Virus record (IMG/VR): IMGVR_UViG_3300017992_001436
Location: 1 to 21,766 of that record
Length of the DNA stretch: 21,766 nt
Strand: one strand, 5' to 3'
Origin: a virus
Shown here: positions 5,829 through 21,766 of the stretch, in pieces
How the letters are laid out: each line of letters opens with the position of its first letter
How positions within the stretch are numbered: the first letter of the stretch is position 1
Position numbers and translations under genes: made by a program
The notes under the pieces: generated by a model
Databases searched by the model: none
Told to the model about the DNA's origin: nothing
The model's input: only the letters and a program-made list of their open reading frames with translations

Positions 5829-6101
5829 TTAGTTCTCTGAGGGTTCAAGTCCCTTCCAAGGTAGAGAGGGTTTTTGGGTGGGGGCCTGCTCCGGTGTAAA
5901 AAGAAACCCTTCCGCAACAGCTAAGCTGGTTTGTATCTCCTCGGAATTTGTTAGCGGGTAAACACCTTCAGGCCGATCTCTCAGTTCTAAGATGGCATCT
6001 GTTAGTACAGCAGATAGGCTCGGGTCATCCTGCGCCAACAGCTCCAGCAAGTCTTCCGGAGAACCTGCGATCGCCGACGTGTGGATCAAGCCGGTCCTCA
6101 C
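5829..6101 (-). CDS. Hypothetical small acidic protein
   Basis: This is a 90-residue protein I do not recognise. The chosen start is GTG 6101, which overlaps the stop of the RGP gene as GTGA and has AGAAGAAAG just upstream. The frame extends to 6170, but that part lies inside the RGP gene. The chain is acidic, with a helical first half (SPEDLLELLAQDDPSLSAVLTDAILEL) and a later segment AVAEGFLFTPEQAP, ending in a Pro-rich tail. Its position behind the glycosyl cassette, and the coupled start, suggest co-expression with that cassette. It has no signal peptide, Cys cluster or membrane segment. Confidence 0.65.
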   Translation of the reverse strand: MRTGLIHTSAIAGSPEDLLELLAQDDPSLSAVLTDAILELRDRPEGVYPLTNSEEIQTSLAVAEGFLFTPEQAPTQKPSLPWKGLEPSEN

Positions 6102-7129
6102 GCTTTCTTCTTGGTACGCGTAAAGCACGGGCTGTCCTTGTGCAAAAATTCTCGTATTTGAGATTCCCACCGCTGCCGTTTTTCCGCGTAGGTCTCCGCA
6201 AAAGCCGGTAACATCGCTTTACCGTGGTTCTGCCAGTAGGTCTCGTTGACCTGCAACCCGACTGCCTCCTGCCTAAGACTGGAGAAAACGTTCGAAGCGC
6301 GGACATGCTCCGCTACCGCATAACCCGACACCACTCCGTAATCGAGCCGGTCGCAAGCTTCCTTGATGTGGATGCCTGCCCAGATATCGTCGAAGCGTTC
6401 GCAACCCGGTGTACTGCTGACAGGTGCGTAATAGACATACGGCAACAGCTCCCGGCGGAAGGCCACGTTCATCCCACACATCGGGAAGTACGTTCCTCTT
6501 GGTATCACGCCCCGGAAGAAGCCGCCTGCGTACTCTGCATCGTCGCCTTTCACCAGCTGGGTTGGAGCATCCCAATCGGGTACGTTGTGCCAGACCCCGT
6601 GAGACAGCATCACAGGTGCTTCTTGGCGGATACCGTACGGAAAGCCTCTTGGGTACGCCGGAGCCTCCATCGTGTTGACCCACGAAATCGGCACCGATTG
6701 GTCCAATGCCGTTAGGTGCTGCTCAATGGTGTCTTCGCCTTTTTCCTGGATACCCAGCAGCAAGTCGCCATCATCCGCGTAGGAAACCGGTAGGCAGTCG
6801 TCGTCCAAGGTCACGATTACACTGACATCCTCAAAATACGCGGCGACCGCAGCGAAACCGAGGTTTCGACACGCAGGCGTGTACCTGTGGATAAAGTGAG
6901 CGTTGTGGTCAAGCACTCCGGGAGCCGATATTCGCTGCCCATCCAAAGGGTGGCAGTCGCTCTCGGAGTGGTCGAGCACCTGCAGATGCTGCTGATCACC
7001 GTCTCGAACTTTTAGCAGATACACCTCGTGCTTGCGGAAGATAGGCGACCAGGCGTTCAGGAACTCCTCCCAACACTCATCCCGGATTGTGGGCACCACA
7101 ACTGCAATACGACCGTCACGTACGTTCAC
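6098..7129 (-). CDS. Reversibly glycosylated polypeptide (RGP, GT75)-like protein
   Basis: This belongs to the RGP family, known in plants as UDP-arabinopyranose mutases that interconvert UDP-arabinopyranose and UDP-arabinofuranose and self-glycosylate on an Arg. Seen in the 343 residues: VVVPTIRDE at the N-terminus, the metal/nucleotide-sugar DDD motif (109-111), GFPYGIR (Arg168 aligns with the self-glycosylated Arg in plant GYPFSLR), LSHGVWHNVPDWDAPTQL, the hallmark FPMCGMNVAF (215-224), RFDDIWAGI and RASNVFSSL. The start GTG 7129 overlaps the previous stop as GTGA and has GGAGGTG upstream. It follows a GT-A glycosyltransferase and a class I methyltransferase, forming a sugar cassette. Likely roles are supply of a furanose sugar for glycosylation of phage DNA, virion or host surface. 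Family identity is very clear; the exact sugar is not. Confidence 0.93.
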   Translation of the reverse strand: MNVRDGRIAVVVPTIRDECWEEFLNAWSPIFRKHEVYLLKVRDGDQQHLQVLDHSESDCHPLDGQRISAPGVLDHNAHFIHRYTPACRNLGFAAVAAYFEDVSVIVTLDDDCLPVSYADDGDLLLGIQEKGEDTIEQHLTALDQSVPISWVNTMEAPAYPRGFPYGIRQEAPVMLSHGVWHNVPDWDAPTQLVKGDDAEYAGGFFRGVIPRGTYFPMCGMNVAFRRELLPYVYYAPVSSTPGCERFDDIWAGIHIKEACDRLDYGVVSGYAVAEHVRASNVFSSLRQEAVGLQVNETYWQNHGKAMLPAFAETYAEKRQRWESQIREFLHKDSPCFTRTKKKA

Positions 7130-7866
7130 GCCCGCACCTCCATGATTTGTAGGTTCCGGTTTTGTAGGAAGAAGCTGCCCCACTTCTTGTGCATATACCG
7201 GCACTGCGCCTGGTGCAACTCGTTGAGGTCCTCTTCCTGGACGATCGCCCACCGCCGCCGCCACGCTCTGTCAAGCGGCTTCCACGGGTGATACACAAGC
7301 ACATCGTGCAAGCAGGCACACTTGAACCCTTGCGACCGGACCTGCAGCGAGAGATCGAGGTCCGACATCCCAGAAGGACCCGGGATACTCTCATCCGCCC
7401 GCAGGTCGTCCAGGCGATCCAGATCGAACATCATGACGTAGCCTGGGCACCAAGGTCTCATCGAGATCCGTTCCAAGTGCGCAGCGCAGTTCGGGTTCGT
7501 GGAGGGATCGGCCAGATAGGCGTCCTTGTCTTTCTCGTCCTTCACCTCAAAGGGCACGAGCATCCCGATGTCCTCGTGCTCTTGCATGACGTCCAGCATC
7601 TTTTGCAGCCAGCCGTCAGTTAGGAACACGAGATCGTCGTCCATGATGACAACGTACCGGGATCGCACGCGGTCCAACACCTTGTTGATGTTTGCGTGAG
7701 CCGTGCCTGGCTCGAACACGTAGATCAGATTGAAGGACCGCCGCGTCCGCTGTGCCAGACTGGCCAGCTGTTCCGGGTGCAGCGGTCCGATGCGTTGCAT
7801 GAACATTCCGAGATCCGGAATCTCTCGCAGCGCAGACGTGGAGACAGTTTCTTTGGGTGCAGCCAT
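7126..7866 (-). CDS. GT-A fold glycosyltransferase (GT2-like)
   Basis: This 246-residue protein resembles family-2-type glycosyltransferases. It has a DDD motif in RYVVIMDDDLVFLTDGWL (76-78) for metal and nucleotide-sugar binding, a following MLVPFEVKD strand, a late acidic motif SDLDLSLQVRSQGF (Asp169/Asp171) in the position of the catalytic base, and His193 in VYHPWKP. It lacks the extreme N-terminal first strand of larger GT2 enzymes, so it is somewhat short. The start ATG 7866 has AAAGGA upstream and lies two bases after the methyltransferase stop. A longer frame to 8124 lies inside that gene. Its end overlaps the RGP start. Donor and acceptor are unknown; the neighbouring RGP suggests a furanose-type donor. 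Confidence 0.85.
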   Translation of the reverse strand: MAAPKETVSTSALREIPDLGMFMQRIGPLHPEQLASLAQRTRRSFNLIYVFEPGTAHANINKVLDRVRSRYVVIMDDDLVFLTDGWLQKMLDVMQEHEDIGMLVPFEVKDEKDKDAYLADPSTNPNCAAHLERISMRPWCPGYVMMFDLDRLDDLRADESIPGPSGMSDLDLSLQVRSQGFKCACLHDVLVYHPWKPLDRAWRRRWAIVQEEDLNELHQAQCRYMHKKWGSFFLQNRNLQIMEVRA

Positions 7867-7868
7867 GA

Positions 7869-8435
7869 TCAGTCCTTTACAAGTACGGCACCAAAGCCTC
7901 GGCAGAATCCGTACTCCAGTTCCTCGCGGTGTGCCTCTATCTCCTGCAAGTGCGTCTTTTGCAGCAAGCTGCGGAACATGGAATCGGTCCAGACTGTCTG
8001 GTGCCAGGACGTGATCCCATGCTCCCACACGGTCAACAGGTGGGGCTCGTGCTGCACCTCCGGCGGCCTCGAATCGAGAGGTATGGTGACTACAATACGA
8101 CCGCTGGGCCGGATCACCCTGCACGCTTCGAGGAGCACGAGGACCGCGGCGTCAAACGGGCAGTGCTCCAGCATTTCCCCGACCACGGCAACCTCGAAGG
8201 ACTCGTCGTCAAACGGCAAGGCGCAGGCGTCCGCTCGCACGAAGTTTGGCACCTCGTACAGACTGAGCCGTTCTTGCGGGTCGTAGTCGTTGATGTCGCA
8301 GTTGACCGCATCGAAGTCGCGGCCGAGTTTCGCCGGATCTTCCTTGCAACCTACATTGACTACCGGCCGAAGCTCGGCGCACTTACGGCGTTGGTAGTCG
8401 TGACAGGGCATCTGAGAGTAATCTGCTTCCGCCAT
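7869..8435 (-). CDS. Class I SAM-dependent methyltransferase (Methyltransf_11-like)
   Basis: This 188-residue methyltransferase has a Rossmann fold. Motif I is VNVGCKEDP (26-34), somewhat degenerate for the usual G-x-G-x-G. Motif II is DAVNCDIND (Asp47). Motif III is FVRADACALPFDDESFEVAVV, and the motif IV/V area is EACRVIRPSGRIVVTIP. These match small-molecule and sugar methylases rather than DNA methylases: there is no (D/N)PP(Y/F). The start ATG 8435 has AAAGGAG ten bases upstream. It is placed directly before the glycosyltransferase and RGP genes, so O-methylation of a sugar or of the glycosylated acceptor is a reasonable inference, not shown by the sequence. Confidence 0.88.
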   Translation of the reverse strand: MAEADYSQMPCHDYQRRKCAELRPVVNVGCKEDPAKLGRDFDAVNCDINDYDPQERLSLYEVPNFVRADACALPFDDESFEVAVVGEMLEHCPFDAAVLVLLEACRVIRPSGRIVVTIPLDSRPPEVQHEPHLLTVWEHGITSWHQTVWTDSMFRSLLQKTHLQEIEAHREELEYGFCRGFGAVLVKD

Positions 8436-8439
8436 CCCA

Positions 8440-8997
8440 CTACGCTCCTTTGGGAGAGGGTGTGTTGCCTTCCAGAATCTCGCGCTCCGTCGCGAGATCC
8501 CGGTTGGCAGCTTTTTCCGCGTCGAACTTCTCGGGATACCGGGATCGCAGCTTGGCGATGTTCCGCTCCATCACGTCTGCCGGATCGAAGCCGGTTGTGT
8601 CGCAGAGAACGGCGTCGTACCACCACCCGTCACCGAGTTCTTCGAAGACGTTGGTCATGTCCAGGTCTTGATCGCAAAACAAGTGCTTTCGTATCGCATC
8701 AAGCAGCTCCAACGCCTCTGTCGCCTTGCCGATAGCGGCATGGACGATCCTCGGGTTTACCTGGAAGCGGACGCGAGGTCGATCGTCTCGGTACACTTCT
8801 CTCCCATATACCCGCTCACCAGCTTTCCGCTCCGACTCGGAACTCACATAGAAGATGCTCTTCTTCAGCAGATCGAGGGTTTCCCCGTCGGCACACATCC
8901 GTCGGAGGAGGTCGTAGAGCATCCCGGCATCTGCAACCACGCAACCCACGATGCTCTCCGTACGAACCGCTTGCGAGATGTATTCCTTCGTGATCAC
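8440..8997 (-). CDS. MazG-like nucleotide pyrophosphohydrolase
   Basis: This is an all-alpha NTP pyrophosphohydrolase-type protein of 185 residues. The metal-binding ExxE...ExxD set is visible: TEALELLDAI (Glu94, Glu97), then EELGDGWWYDAV (Glu120, Asp123). It ends with the family's NIAKLRSRYPEKFDAEKA helix. The N-terminal 80 residues (SIVGCVVADAGMLYDLLRRM) are extra and not recognised. Such enzymes hydrolyse (d)NTPs to monophosphates, and phage versions are thought to influence dNTP quality or alarmone levels. I chose GTG 8997, overlapping the HTH gene stop as GTGA with AGGAGG eight bases upstream. It sits in the same operon as ThyX, fitting a nucleotide-supply role. Confidence 0.88.
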   Translation of the reverse strand: MITKEYISQAVRTESIVGCVVADAGMLYDLLRRMCADGETLDLLKKSIFYVSSESERKAGERVYGREVYRDDRPRVRFQVNPRIVHAAIGKATEALELLDAIRKHLFCDQDLDMTNVFEELGDGWWYDAVLCDTTGFDPADVMERNIAKLRSRYPEKFDAEKAANRDLATEREILEGNTPSPKGA

Positions 8998-9266: not shown

Positions 9267-10043
9267 CTACGCAGGCATGGGTGGAACCGGAGGAGCAGGT
9301 GCCGGAGCAGGTGCCGGCGGTTCCGGGGTCGGAGCAGGTGCCGGAGCAGGCGCCGGAGCAGGTGCCGGAGCAGGCGCCGGAGCAGGCGCCGGAGCAGGCG
9401 CCGGAGCAGGCGCCGGAGCAGGCGCCGGAGCAGGTGCCGGAGCAGGTGCCGGAGCAGGTGCCGGAGCAGGTGCCGGCGGTTCCGGGGTCGGAGCAGGTGC
9501 CGGAGCAGGCGCCGGCGGTTCCGGGGTCGGAGCAGGCGCCGGCGGTTCCGGGGTCGGAGCAGGCGCCGGCGGTTCCGGGGTCGGAGCAGGTGCCGTCGCC
9601 TCGCCGGTCGACGGCGGCGGATCGGTAACCGGTGCTACCTCTCCCTGCTGCAGCTCCGACTCCACGGCTGCCAGTTGCTTCTCCAGCGACTCGATCTCCC
9701 GATCGACCACGGCCTGCTGAGCCTGGGCGTCTTTGGTCTTGCCGGTCATCTGACTGCGAATCGTGCGAAGACCCTCCAACTGGTGCTGCAGGCGTGCGCG
9801 GCTCGTGCGTGGGCTGGGTTTGGCCGACACAGGCTCACACGTACCTCCTGTCACGTCGAAGAACCGGCTCTTGGCGATGTCGGCGTTCTTGGCAAGGATG
9901 TAGTTCTGGAAATCTCCGTGCGACAGATGGTAGGGTCGCACTCCCCGCTTCCCCTTCGCCGCCGCGCGGGCCTCCTCCAACGTGCTATACGGTCTGAGCA
10001 GGGCCTCGTCCGGTGGATTCCTCTTTGCAGTTTTCTTCGCCAC
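9267..10043 (-). CDS. Coiled-coil protein with long Pro/Ala repeat tail
   Basis: This 258-residue protein has three parts. Residues 1-80 are basic and soluble, starting AKKTAKRNPP with YHLSHGDFQNYILAKNADIA. Residues about 83-133 are a heptad-patterned coiled coil (LQHQLEGLRTI, then DREIESLEKQLAAVESELQ). Residues 150-258 are a nearly pure repeat of APAP and TPEPP units, like the stiff spacers of TonB or other extended linkers. I chose GTG 10043 because AGGAGG lies eight bases upstream. The frame runs back to 10322, but that region carries promoter-like and operator-like sequence. It is the first gene of the leftward operon, so probably strongly expressed. The tail could span a distance such as envelope or capsid, or serve as bait for binding. 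No function is recognised. Confidence 0.82.
   Translation of the reverse strand: MAKKTAKRNPPDEALLRPYSTLEEARAAAKGKRGVRPYHLSHGDFQNYILAKNADIAKSRFFDVTGGTCEPVSAKPSPRTSRARLQHQLEGLRTIRSQMTGKTKDAQAQQAVVDREIESLEKQLAAVESELQQGEVAPVTDPPPSTGEATAPAPTPEPPAPAPTPEPPAPAPTPEPPAPAPAPAPTPEPPAPAPAPAPAPAPAPAPAPAPAPAPAPAPAPAPAPAPAPAPAPAPAPAPTPEPPAPAPAPAPPVPPMPA
9292..9594. repeat. Tandem array of 12-bp and 15-bp units
   Basis: The plus strand shows nineteen 12-bp units GGAGCAGGYGCC (twelve in a row at 9331-9474) and five 15-bp units GGCGGTTCCGGGGTC, the latter mixed in at 9316, 9475, 9514, 9541 and 9568. Read on the minus strand, in frame, the 12-mer encodes Ala-Pro-Ala-Pro and the 15-mer encodes Thr-Pro-Glu-Pro-Pro. 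Units are multiples of three, so copy-number change would alter tail length without frameshift. Near-identity of the units implies recent expansion by slippage or recombination, and assembly of the exact copy number may be unreliable. Confidence 0.97.
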
Positions 10044-10106
10044 GGTCTCTCCTCCTACGGGTTCTCGGTCTACGAGGTTTCGGTATCGTTTCTCCCGACA
10101 ATTCAA

Positions 10107-10112
10107 ATTATA
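10107..10112 (-). promoter_or_regulatory. Candidate leftward -10 (PL1, gene-proximal)
   Basis: The minus strand reads a perfect TATAAT. Seventeen bases upstream is TTCGGA, which matches only three of six positions of TTGACA. It lies 63 bases before the GTG at 10043, giving a short leader. Either this or the distal element below could drive the left operon. Confidence 0.4.
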
Positions 10113-10137
10113 CGAATCTTGCGTGCGTTTCCGAACG

Positions 10138-10172
10138 ATTTTCTGGAAGAAACTCTGGATTTTCCAGAAAAT
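10138..10172. promoter_or_regulatory. Inverted repeat, candidate operator
   Basis: The sequence is ATTTTCTGGAA, a 13-base spacer, then TTCCAGAAAAT: 11-bp perfect arms. The spacer contains a further CTCTGGA, so there are two direct CTGGA cores and one inverted. The element sits upstream of the proximal -10 and just downstream of the distal one, where a bound dimer could block or activate leftward transcription. It has no T-tract after a GC-rich stem, so it is not a terminator. Confidence 0.6.
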
Positions 10173-10199
10173 ACGCGTCAGACGCGATGGGCTGGCCGT

Positions 10200-10205
10200 A
10201 TTATA
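10200..10205 (-). promoter_or_regulatory. Candidate leftward -10 (PL2, distal)
   Basis: The minus strand reads TACTATAATACGG, with a perfect TATAAT. No good TTGACA is found at 16-18 bases upstream; the area holds a small AGAGA/TCTCT inverted repeat at 10212-10226 instead. A poor -35 can indicate an activated or alternative-sigma promoter. Confidence 0.4.
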
Positions 10206-10603
10206 GTAGATAGAGAAACAATCTCTTCGCGTGTGGCGCCCGAGCGCAACGACATTCGGAGCCTCCCCTAACCGCAGCCGGGGTGAGAAGTAGGCTGCTG
10301 CTTCTGCGAGTTTCCAGACCATGATTGGTGTCCGACGTACACGCTGTCTGGCGTATCGCGGTGTGACAGGGTGAAAGCTGCTAGGTCACAGAAATTACTA
10401 GCAGTCGGTGCATGCGCGAGCGATAGCCTCAGCCATGCCTTGCCGCAACGATCTCTTCCCAAAGTCAGCTTTGGTGAAGGGGTCGGTGCGCACTCGCTCC
10501 TGCCTAGCCATGCCTAACGGTACTACCGTTTTCTACGGCAACTATCGTTATCTCTTGGTACGAGGATTGCGCGCTTGTCGGACTTCTGAAAGGAAGGTTC
10601 AGA

Positions 10604-11245
10604 GTGAGTAGTCCGAAGAAGTTCCGGTTTCAACGTAGAAGAGGGAAGAAGTCTCCTAGAGTCCATACGCAGGTTGCTGATGTAACGCTTCCTCTGAAAA
10701 CGGATGCCATTGTTTTAGGAATGATTCGATCTCGGCATCCTAGGAGATCACGAGAGCTGATCATTTCTGTTCTGAACGATTACCTACCGACAGTGAAACC
10801 TCTTAAACGGCGGAAGCTTTTGGAAAGGTGGAGGATTTGTCAGAAACCGGGTTCAAAGCTTCCCTACCCGAGACAACCCTCTGAAGCCGACATTGTGTTC
10901 TACCTGGCAAAGAACATCGAACAAGCCGGTTTCGACGTTCGCCTGGAAGTATCTGTTCGACGAGACGACACGACACACCGGTTTGATCTCGTTGTTTACG
11001 ATGAACACGTAGCTATCCTCTTGATCGAGGTTAAGAAACACGCGCACGGCGCCGTCCGAAGTTGGAAAGGCCAGGAAAGACCCGTTATCGCACCAGGCGC
11101 GCTGGAGAAGCAGCTTGAAAAGTACAGCTGTTTTCGTGTTCCGATTGATGTTGTTTGCGGGATGAAGGCGGCGAAGCAGTACGTCTCCGGTAAGCTATTT
11201 GCGCCCTACAACCGAAGTACCAAGAAACTTTGGCGGATCATTTGA
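10604..11245 (+). CDS. PD-(D/E)XK nuclease-like protein
   Basis: This is a 213-residue protein and the first gene of the right arm. The core RFDLVVY...AILLIEVKKH gives Asp128, then Glu142-Val-Lys144, the D-x(13)-ExK pattern of the PD-(D/E)XK nuclease superfamily. It is preceded by Glu96 in a helix (EADIVFYLAKNIEQ) and followed by an aligned Gln/Lys helix (LEKQLEKYSCF) and a strand (IDVVCGM). The N-terminus is highly basic (KKFRFQRRRGKKSPR), suiting DNA contact. The start GTG has AAAGGAAGG upstream. Possible roles are host DNA breakdown, recombination or repair, or a homing-type nuclease. The fold call is by motif only. Confidence 0.72.
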   Translation: MSSPKKFRFQRRRGKKSPRVHTQVADVTLPLKTDAIVLGMIRSRHPRRSRELIISVLNDYLPTVKPLKRRKLLERWRICQKPGSKLPYPRQPSEADIVFYLAKNIEQAGFDVRLEVSVRRDDTTHRFDLVVYDEHVAILLIEVKKHAHGAVRSWKGQERPVIAPGALEKQLEKYSCFRVPIDVVCGMKAAKQYVSGKLFAPYNRSTKKLWRII

Positions 11246-20075: not shown

Positions 20076-21766
20076 GTGTCCGAAGTCTGGCAATCCACCG
20101 ATCACGCCCAGCGCGCGAAGATCGCGGTTCAGTCGGCCGATGTCGACTCGAATCTGTCAGACTTTACGTTTCTCGTGGTGATCGACGGCACGAAAATCCT
20201 ATCCGCCGACATCACGTCGAAACGCTATCGATTCTATATCGAAGGCGACCCGGACCCGTTGCCGTACGACGAATTGCAACTCGACACGGGCGACACTTAC
20301 GCCGTCGGTTGTGCGGCCGTCAAATGCGATCCAACGGCCGCGGCCGACGGGTACTTGTGGATCTATTTTGATGGTGACCCTGGCAGCGATCAGGATGATG
20401 CGGCTAACGCGTACGACGACAACACGGTGGCTTTAGTTCCGCTGAATGAAAACGGCAGTACGTTTTACGACCGGACAAGCAACAACCACGACTGGACTGC
20501 CCAAGGCACGCTGCCTAATCAGGTGGATGGTGTGGCAGGATGTTCGCGGCAAGAGTTCAACGGGAGCGGGGCCGCAGACAAAGCCTATCCGGCGAGCTTT
20601 TTTGATATTCCCTACACGGGACAAGTTTCTTTCGTTGTCAATTCGGATTACGCGTTCAGTAGCACGAACGCCCATTTGATTCGGGCAGTATACAGTGAAA
20701 GCAAATCATTTGAACTTGGAATTTTTGCTGGGACAGTTTACGGCGGTTGGTATCAGGCTTATAACGATGATCGGGTTAACGGCAGTATTTCGGGCTCGGC
20801 AGGAACTGATTACTGGCTTCGACTGTATTGGACCAATGGTGGTGCGACAACGGTACAACTGGATGGATCAACAAAGGCAACCGGAGGCACGCTTGACGCT
20901 CAGTGGGCAACGAGCGGAGCCACAGTGTTTCATATCGGGTACAACAACTGGCCCGGAACTGGACATTATTTTGAAGGCAAACTACAGTTTTGTTGGATCG
21001 ACTCGGCAGTACGAACATCTGCTTGGGACAAGCTGCGACGGCTCAACGCGCTCAGCGGCGACAACTCGCAGACGTGGAGCGCTGCCGAGGACAAGCCGAG
21101 CGTAAGCGACTGGCACACGGCTTCTACCGAATCGACCGATAATTCCGTCGGAACCGTCGATTGGGACACGACCGGTAATGCTGATGACGACGATAACAGC
21201 TACGACACTGTTGACAGCGCTTCGATCGTTGATACCTACTACCTTACGCTCACCAACCTGGGATTTGATACAGACGACTTCCCTGCTGATGCTGACATCG
21301 AATCCATTGAAATCGAGATCATCGCTAAGGCGTCGCACAAAGCCGGGCCGATCTACGTTACCATAAATGCCTCACGACTAATTGTTGCCGGAAGCATCCA
21401 ATCTGTTGATCTGCTGGGCGTTGACGACGCTTTTGAGACATCGGAAACGACCTACCAACTCAGCGGTGATGACGACCACGCTGGTAAAACGCTTGGAGGC
21501 AGTGATCTGCACGCCAGCAATTTCGGCGTGGCTCTGTCTCTGCACCTGCAAACGACAGCCAGCATAAACGTCACCGGTTATGTTGAACGTGTGCGGGTTC
21601 GGGCGTGGTATACGTCCGACTCTTCTCCGAGTGCATCGGAGTCAGCGTCAGTTTCGGCATCCCCGAGTGCTTCGGAGTCAGCGAGTCCATCGGCATCCCA
21701 GAGTGAGTCGGCATCGCCGTCGGCCTCGGAGTCAGCGTCAGTCTCGGCATCGCCGTCGGCCTCGGA
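20076..21766 (+). CDS. DUF2341/LamG-like surface or tail protein with Ser-rich repeat (partial)
   Basis: The frame is open from GTG 20076 to the window edge (563 codons), with no stop. The N-terminal 100 residues (FTFLVVIDGTKI, then YRFYIEGDPDPLPYDE, then GYLWIYFDG) match the DUF2341 style of extracellular beta domain. Residues about 117-345 resemble a LamG/concanavalin-like lectin (ALVPLNENGSTFYDRTSNNH, then EFNGSG, and TGHYFEGKLQFCWIDSAVR). A further beta domain follows (345-510), then from residue 516 a Ser/Ala/Pro/Glu repeat (SPSASESASVSAS) runs off the edge. Such layouts occur in phage decoration, fibre or host-adhesion proteins. No ribosome site is visible. The start codon could differ, but the reading frame is secure because it is free of stops and its composition fits a surface protein. 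Confidence 0.85.
   Translation, partial: MSEVWQSTDHAQRAKIAVQSADVDSNLSDFTFLVVIDGTKILSADITSKRYRFYIEGDPDPLPYDELQLDTGDTYAVGCAAVKCDPTAAADGYLWIYFDGDPGSDQDDAANAYDDNTVALVPLNENGSTFYDRTSNNHDWTAQGTLPNQVDGVAGCSRQEFNGSGAADKAYPASFFDIPYTGQVSFVVNSDYAFSSTNAHLIRAVYSESKSFELGIFAGTVYGGWYQAYNDDRVNGSISGSAGTDYWLRLYWTNGGATTVQLDGSTKATGGTLDAQWATSGATVFHIGYNNWPGTGHYFEGKLQFCWIDSAVRTSAWDKLRRLNALSGDNSQTWSAAEDKPSVSDWHTASTESTDNSVGTVDWDTTGNADDDDNSYDTVDSASIVDTYYLTLTNLGFDTDDFPADADIESIEIEIIAKASHKAGPIYVTINASRLIVAGSIQSVDLLGVDDAFETSETTYQLSGDDDHAGKTLGGSDLHASNFGVALSLHLQTTASINVTGYVERVRVRAWYTSDSSPSASESASVSASPSASESASPSASQSESASPSASESASVSASPSAS
21621..21766 (+). repeat. Ser-rich tandem repeat (partial)
   Basis: Imperfect 6- and 9-bp-stepped repeats of TCG/TCA/AGT with GCA/GCC, CCG and GAG codons encode SPSASES and SASVSAS units. 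Synonymous Ser codons vary between copies, so the repeat is selected at the protein level and is not simply a recent DNA expansion. It continues past the window end. Confidence 0.9.

Follow-up and report, generated by a model that had tools for sequence, protein, structure and literature searches.

What would a bacteriophage do with a reversibly glycosylated polypeptide (RGP), a protein of the GT75 enzyme family, known chiefly from plant cell walls, whose gene is coupled to those of a glycosyltransferase (GT) and a methyltransferase (MTase)? The question is raised by the stretch of DNA analysed here (the window), an IMG/VR record of 21,766 bases. It is a fragment of a tailed phage, as seen from the terminase, SPP1-type portal and SU10-type major capsid genes on its plus-strand half, which also carries ParB-like and scaffold-like genes.

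A coupled cassette in an early-type operon

On the minus strand (6098-8435), three genes are coupled stop to start in the order MTase, GT, RGP, with the MTase ATG starting 4 nt after the MazG stop, the GT ATG starting 2 nt after the MTase stop and the GTG start of the RGP gene overlapping the GT stop as GTGA. The relevant features of the window are as follows:

6098-7129, minus strand: RGP/GT75 protein, predicted NDP-pyranose/furanose mutase; 343 aa, GTG start; PF03214, 1.6e-42
7126-7866, minus strand: GT-A fold (GT2-like) glycosyltransferase; 246 aa from ATG; PF00535 (Glycos_transf_2), 2.1e-9
7869-8435, minus strand: class I SAM methyltransferase, Methyltransf_11 type; 188 aa; PF08241, 7.6e-10
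8440-8997, minus strand: MazG-like pyrophosphatase, directly upstream in the operon; PF03819, 9.7e-8; phrog_229, 6e-40
20076-21764, plus strand: protein downstream of the capsid gene, running off the contig; C-terminal Ser-rich tract

The cassette lies within an early-type operon, apart from the structural genes, with HTH and MazG genes upstream and genes for a sigma factor, GNAT, ThyX, a trypsin-like protease and an N6/N4 DNA methylase downstream. A first-pass annotation of this DNA had described the three coupled genes and an operon common to the cassette, ThyX and MazG; gene calls, profiles and junction spacing bear out the former, and Pfam matches in the window the latter. Between two divergent operons, a gene at 9267-10322 encodes a long Pro-Ala-Pro repeat protein (12-nt tandem repeat, GC 67%) that matched no known family. 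The product of 10604-11245, which adjoins a Sigma70 region 2 protein, has a weak match to the HSDR_N restriction-nuclease N-terminus (3.4e-5, just under the cut-off).

Searches of PHROGs and NCBIfam assigned neither the RGP nor the GT. The GT carries a DDD motif within MDDDL and the acceptor-side motif SDLDLSLQ...YHPW; its structure prediction, made from a two-sequence alignment, was of no use (pLDDT 38), and its PDB profile matches to designed TIM barrels were rejected as artefacts. The best named matches of the MTase are weak (NCBIfam mycofactocin oligosaccharide MTase MftM, 4.4e-7; PDB MitM, 1.9e-8). Although its family is generic, we lean towards a sugar as the probable substrate of this enzyme.

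Family, catalytic residues and substrate pocket of the RGP protein

The RGP profile PF03214 matches over 336 residues, covering profile positions 2-326 of 342 (E=1.6e-42, 146 bits against a cut-off of 23.8). By sequence, the closest PDB entries are OsUAM2 (8cid, 5.7e-23) and MtdL, the sole solved relatives. An AF2 model built on an alignment of 39 viral and cellular homologues reached a mean pLDDT of 85.7 and a pTM of 0.89, and its best seven Foldseek matches in the PDB were all GT75 (OsUAM2, MtdL; E 1e-15 to 3e-14), with the eighth at 4.6e-5. Profile, PDB sequence and predicted fold agree, and membership of GT75 is firm. Structure prediction and a GT75 search, proposed earlier as the check on this protein, both return GT75, and the features whose loss was to count against the assignment (family membership, the DDD motif and the arginine) are all in place.

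With residue roles carried over from the study of MtdL (PMC9937993), the catalytic set is complete (D109-D111, R161, D185, R245, D248, H275). Asp185, Arg245, Asp248 and His275 correspond to MtdL D195, R257, D260 and position 287, respectively; in terms of function, Asp185 and Asp248 form the catalytic aspartate pair, Arg245 is the arginine for the beta-phosphate and His275 the histidine for the metal. Arg88 and Arg277 are likewise kept. Arg161, in the motif PRGFPYGIR, aligns with MtdL R159 and OsUAM1 R158, the catalytic or self-glycosylated arginine of GT75. Across 92 viral and cellular RGPs, Arg161, Asp185, Arg245, Asp248 and His275 are invariant and Asp109 and Asp111 nearly so; Asp187, close to Asp185, is also invariant or nearly so. 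Arg168, the second arginine of the motif, is kept in the window clade but not across the family. The RGP signature reported by the first-pass annotation stands, with the self-glycosylation site at Arg161 rather than Arg168. Some clade members (the RGPs of L010-L012) have DTD for DDD, with Thr at position 110 and the two metal/sugar aspartates retained. Since the protein belongs to GT75 and has every catalytic residue mapped from MtdL, it is likely to be a pyranose-furanose NDP-sugar mutase.

The identity of the sugar is less readily transferred. GDP-using MtdL has Thr13, Asn42 and Ser86 at the base-selectivity positions, where UDP-type plant enzymes have Pro, Asp and Asp (PMC9937993); the window RGP has Pro13, Asp45 and Thr84, two of the three being plant/UDP-like. 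The next residue (MtdL Asp87, AtRGP2 Ser91) is a sugar contact in MtdL, and neither enzyme works without it, AtRGP2 S91 mutants being dead as mutases (PMC9937993). At this position the window RGP has Pro85 instead of Ser, so that the sugar/base-contacting pair reads Asp-Ser in plants, Ser-Asp in MtdL and Thr84-Pro85 in the window; across the nine-member viral clade it is Thr-Pro, Ser-Pro or Cys-Ala. A loss of the Asp/Ser position unique to the window clade was rejected, as 11 of 46 cellular RGPs carry Ala there; Pro is limited to the window, L002 and L013. As judged from the aligned residues, the variant pair argues against transferring the plant arabinose assignment as such: the enzyme could be altered or could use a different sugar, and UDP-arabinose is one candidate substrate among others. 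The earlier proposal of a furanose nucleotide sugar remains the natural reading of GT75 membership and an intact catalytic core, and it is the choice of arabinose that the replacement of Asp-Ser, whose Ser is essential in AtRGP2 (PMC9937993), calls into question.

Relatives and gene neighbourhoods

One profile scan of IMG/VR yielded 51 viral RGP loci, a lower bound. In a quick tree of 95 rows, long branches included, the window RGP falls within a nine-sequence viral group (SH-aLRT 98) with no cellular member. A profile of the window clade found no cellular relative among 84,980 species genomes, and a broader RGP profile found 47 in cellular genomes (Patescibacteria, Planctomycetota, Acidobacteria and Chloroflexi), none within the window clade.

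The cassette recurs in one related phage. Contigs G001 (105.7 kb, IMGVR_UViG_3300017992_000017) and G002 (30.8 kb) share overlapping sequence at either end (>99.9% identity), which implies a single circular map of about 118 kb; a reading of the L002 and L003 contigs as two phages was dropped on the same grounds. The MTase, GT and RGP of L002/L003 are 46%, 38% and 42% identical to those of the window (in L002, E 6e-50 for the MTase and 2e-49 for the GT) and stand in the same order beside MazG. In L002, MazG lies upstream of the cassette, an HD-type protein is encoded before the MTase and a peptide deformylase before the RGP. Gene identities, the GT75 fold with its catalytic residues, the coupling of the genes and the conservation of the set in this relative are all supported by computation. 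Terminase, portal, capsid and ThyX of the two phages are 53-57% identical, and independent transfer of the module between unrelated phages was rejected on the shared terminase (57%), portal (53%) and capsid (54%) of the window and L003. Because the orthologues sit in one related phage with 57% terminase identity, the synteny may partly reflect shared descent. Outside these orthologues, a GT encoded immediately after the L015 RGP has a weak match to the profile of the window GT (E 2e-5), and the MTase has weak matches only, in other RGP contigs.

The relative encodes NeuB (9.8e-78), a GT29 sialyltransferase (1.5e-22), two CTP_transf_3 proteins (CMP-sugar synthetase-like), a sulfotransferase and several GTs, and no PF00303 protein (thymidylate synthase/dCMP-hydroxymethylase) was found in its two contigs of about 118 kb. 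Together, these results describe a phage that invests in glycan synthesis without a known route to hydroxymethylated cytosine. The NeuB, CMP-sugar synthetase-like and GT29 genes (G001 about 48.6-62.7 kb; L113:8625-12508, L114:1821-2696) amount to a pathway of nonulosonic-acid type in a phage. A 1,258-aa multi-domain protein with GT4-like and GT2 domains (L111:9708-13484) has an intein with an HNH endonuclease inside its glycosyltransferase part.

Genes around other viral RGPs are likewise rich in glycan functions, with some assignments in window-clade loci read by eye from the sequence. An RmlB-like 4,6-dehydratase adjoins the RGP in L006 and L009-L012, glycosyltransferase-like and FkbM or Methyltransf_24 genes in L010-L012, L014 and L029, and a DUF3431 gene in L006, L009 and L013; in window-clade relatives the RGP set often comes immediately before the terminase. 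Over all viral RGP loci, Glycos_transf_2 accounted for 12 of 146 near neighbours versus 2 of 146 farther genes (Fisher p=0.011, indicative only, as are all such neighbour p-values, because the contigs that supplied the near and far genes are related). GDP_Man_Dehyd was found in 7 near versus at most 1 far gene, 'at most 1' being the count given to any family unlisted in the far set by tallies of 25 Pfam families, and Methyltransf_24 in 8 near versus 2 far. DUF3431 stands beside RGPs both in phages and on a Planctomyces plasmid (L006:1697-2185, L013:5420-5998, L005:9258-9995), a recurrence that suggests a glycan enzyme.

More distant relatives occur in cultured and huge phages. The cyanophages Synechococcus phage S-T4 (L108:6809-7717; MH412654.1 77002-77910) and Sf-CH8 (L109:6860-7717) encode an MtdL homologue (tblastn 3e-18) that is annotated as a hypothetical or membrane protein, lies below the detection limit of the Pfam RGP profile and sits in a cassette with heptose kinase, cytidylyltransferase, fucosyltransferase and methyltransferase genes; Sf-CH5 is a further cultured cyanophage with an MtdL-like protein. 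GT75-like genes of two huge phages (L110:4767-5780 in LR756501.1, 735 kb; L004:9995-10930 in LR756511.1, 595 kb) adjoin sugar, sulfotransferase or methyltransferase genes.

Proposed acceptor of the sugar and comparison with known systems

We infer the mutase activity, the identity of the sugar, the order of steps, the acceptor and the action of the MTase on the sugar from the evidence above. In the proposed sequence, the RGP would act as a metal-dependent GT75 mutase with Arg161 as the nucleophile at C1 of an NDP-pyranose, whose ring would open and reclose as a furanose before the NDP-furanose leaves the RGP. The coupled GT-A enzyme would then move the furanose onto an acceptor and the coupled MTase would methylate the sugar, probably as a cap, the acceptor being a glycan on a virion protein in the first place and the host envelope in the second. 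We rate the chances as about even that the cassette both produces a furanose sugar and builds it into a glycan specified by the phage, with a virion protein as likeliest acceptor. A virion target, taken by itself, falls slightly short of even and ranks above the host envelope and DNA. Surface glycans are preferred to DNA because of the glycan-rich RGP neighbourhoods and the NeuB and GT29 genes of the relative, which lacks PF00303. The virion target also has a precedent, since mycobacteriophages glycosylate capsid and tail-tube proteins by their own glycosyltransferases (PMC12363180). In the window, the C-terminal tract of the 20076-21764 protein is 52.5% Ser/Thr over 40 residues, and this Ser-rich tail is a speculative candidate for an O-glycan acceptor.

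A furanosyl glycan made by these enzymes could instead decorate the envelope of the host, whether LPS, capsule or S-layer, changing receptors as in serotype conversion or superinfection exclusion. The early-type operon, in which MazG, ThyX and a sigma factor also lie, would suit this, and the NeuB and GT29 of the relative could remodel a host glycan too. We nevertheless hold it to be a tentative second choice, in that most window-clade relatives have the RGP set just before the terminase, outside an early operon, and a non-systematic reading of the genes flanking the cassette recognised none for a membrane flippase, a translocase or a GtrA-like protein. A furanose, for example arabinose and perhaps methylated, could also be attached to phage DNA to evade restriction. 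This would fit an operon that encodes MazG, ThyX and a DNA methyltransferase too, and arabinosyl-hmC is known in RB69 (PMC6024577). It is improbable here: the complete relative lacks a PF00303 dCMP-hydroxymethylase/TS homologue (the window itself being a fragment), and three RGP queries matched no arabinosyl-DNA phage among 50,697 phage records. No known base-hydroxylating enzyme was found either, but the Tet_JBP search, which matched no control, carries no weight. The missing PF00303 enzyme, the lack of RGP matches and the glycan-rich neighbours weaken the earlier suggestion of DNA as a possible target.

Two further alternatives concern the enzymes themselves. GT75 enzymes also show reversible arginine autoglycosylation, the only activity of AtRGP2 on UDP-glucose (PMC9937993), and the Ser91 essential to the plant mutase is Pro in the window; the RGP might then be mainly a self-glycosylating carrier or an arginine glycosyltransferase. 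All other mutase-critical residues are kept, however, and the clade-wide conservation of D185 and D248 fits ring isomerisation, which makes a non-mutase role very improbable. The three genes could also be mere operon neighbours, with the MTase acting on nucleic acid, protein or a small metabolite, as its generic 188-aa Methyltransf_11 domain, its mixed named matches and its poor showing in other RGP contigs would allow. Against this, which we consider unlikely, the MTase is kept between MazG and the GT in the relative at 46% identity, the junctions in the window measure 4 nt and 2 nt, and viral RGPs repeatedly have methyltransferases of other families as neighbours.

The virion glycan thus remains our preferred reading. 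A bolder and rather doubtful extension is that the virus-only GT75 branch, with its rebuilt sugar pocket, makes a furanosyl donor unlike known GT75 products, from which the GT and MTase would build an O-methylated furanose coat. The RGP is a phage-only variant of a known enzyme family of which few bacterial members have been studied; our literature search found neither a functional study nor a cassette description for phage GT75. If active, it would mean that phages carry their own furanose-donor synthesis, and it would widen GT75 substrate chemistry. The cassette offers a concrete enzyme set for asking which sugars phages place on particles or hosts, and the MtdL-like proteins of S-T4, Sf-CH5 and Sf-CH8 open the wider question to laboratory tests.

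Phage-encoded RGPs had been recorded before, with GT75 appearing among the auxiliary genes of soil phages (PMC12016548) and a 'Reversibly glycosylated polypeptide' fragment from an uncultured Caudovirales phage in BFVD/UniProt (A0A6J5N5Z7), but, unlike the window cassette, these are catalogue entries only. The pentosyl-cytosine phages RB69 and Thanatos resemble the present reading in combining a pentose nucleotide sugar with a phage transferase, but they need hydroxymethylated cytosine, and no RGP match to them was found among the phage records. Mycobacteriophage virion glycosylation (Che8 gp110, Corndog gp38) relies on phage-encoded GTs, and the window likewise encodes a GT, the GT2-like protein at 7126-7866, with a putative acceptor. 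Plant RGPs, which are UDP-arabinopyranose mutases (UAMs; OsUAM1, AtRGP1-3, OsUAM2 8cid), share with the window RGP the fold, the DDD motif, the catalytic arginine, Asp185/Asp248, Arg245, His275, the FPMCGMN motif and the UDP-type Pro13 and Asp45, at about 21% identity to 8cid over the fold alignment. They differ in having Asp-Ser rather than Thr-Pro at the sugar/base pocket, and the window protein is encoded by a bacteriophage gene coupled to its own GT and MTase. MtdL/Hyg20 are bacterial GT75 proteins, GDP-L-galactose or GDP-L-fucose mutases of antibiotic pathways. Thr13, Asn42, Ser86-Asp87 and Ser228-Gln229 of MtdL are Pro, Asp, Thr-Pro and Gly-Met in the window RGP (about 22% identity), whereas the catalytic and metal residues are alike, and, as proposed for the cassette, these enzymes belong to a biosynthetic set that provides a furanosyl donor for a glycosyltransferase.
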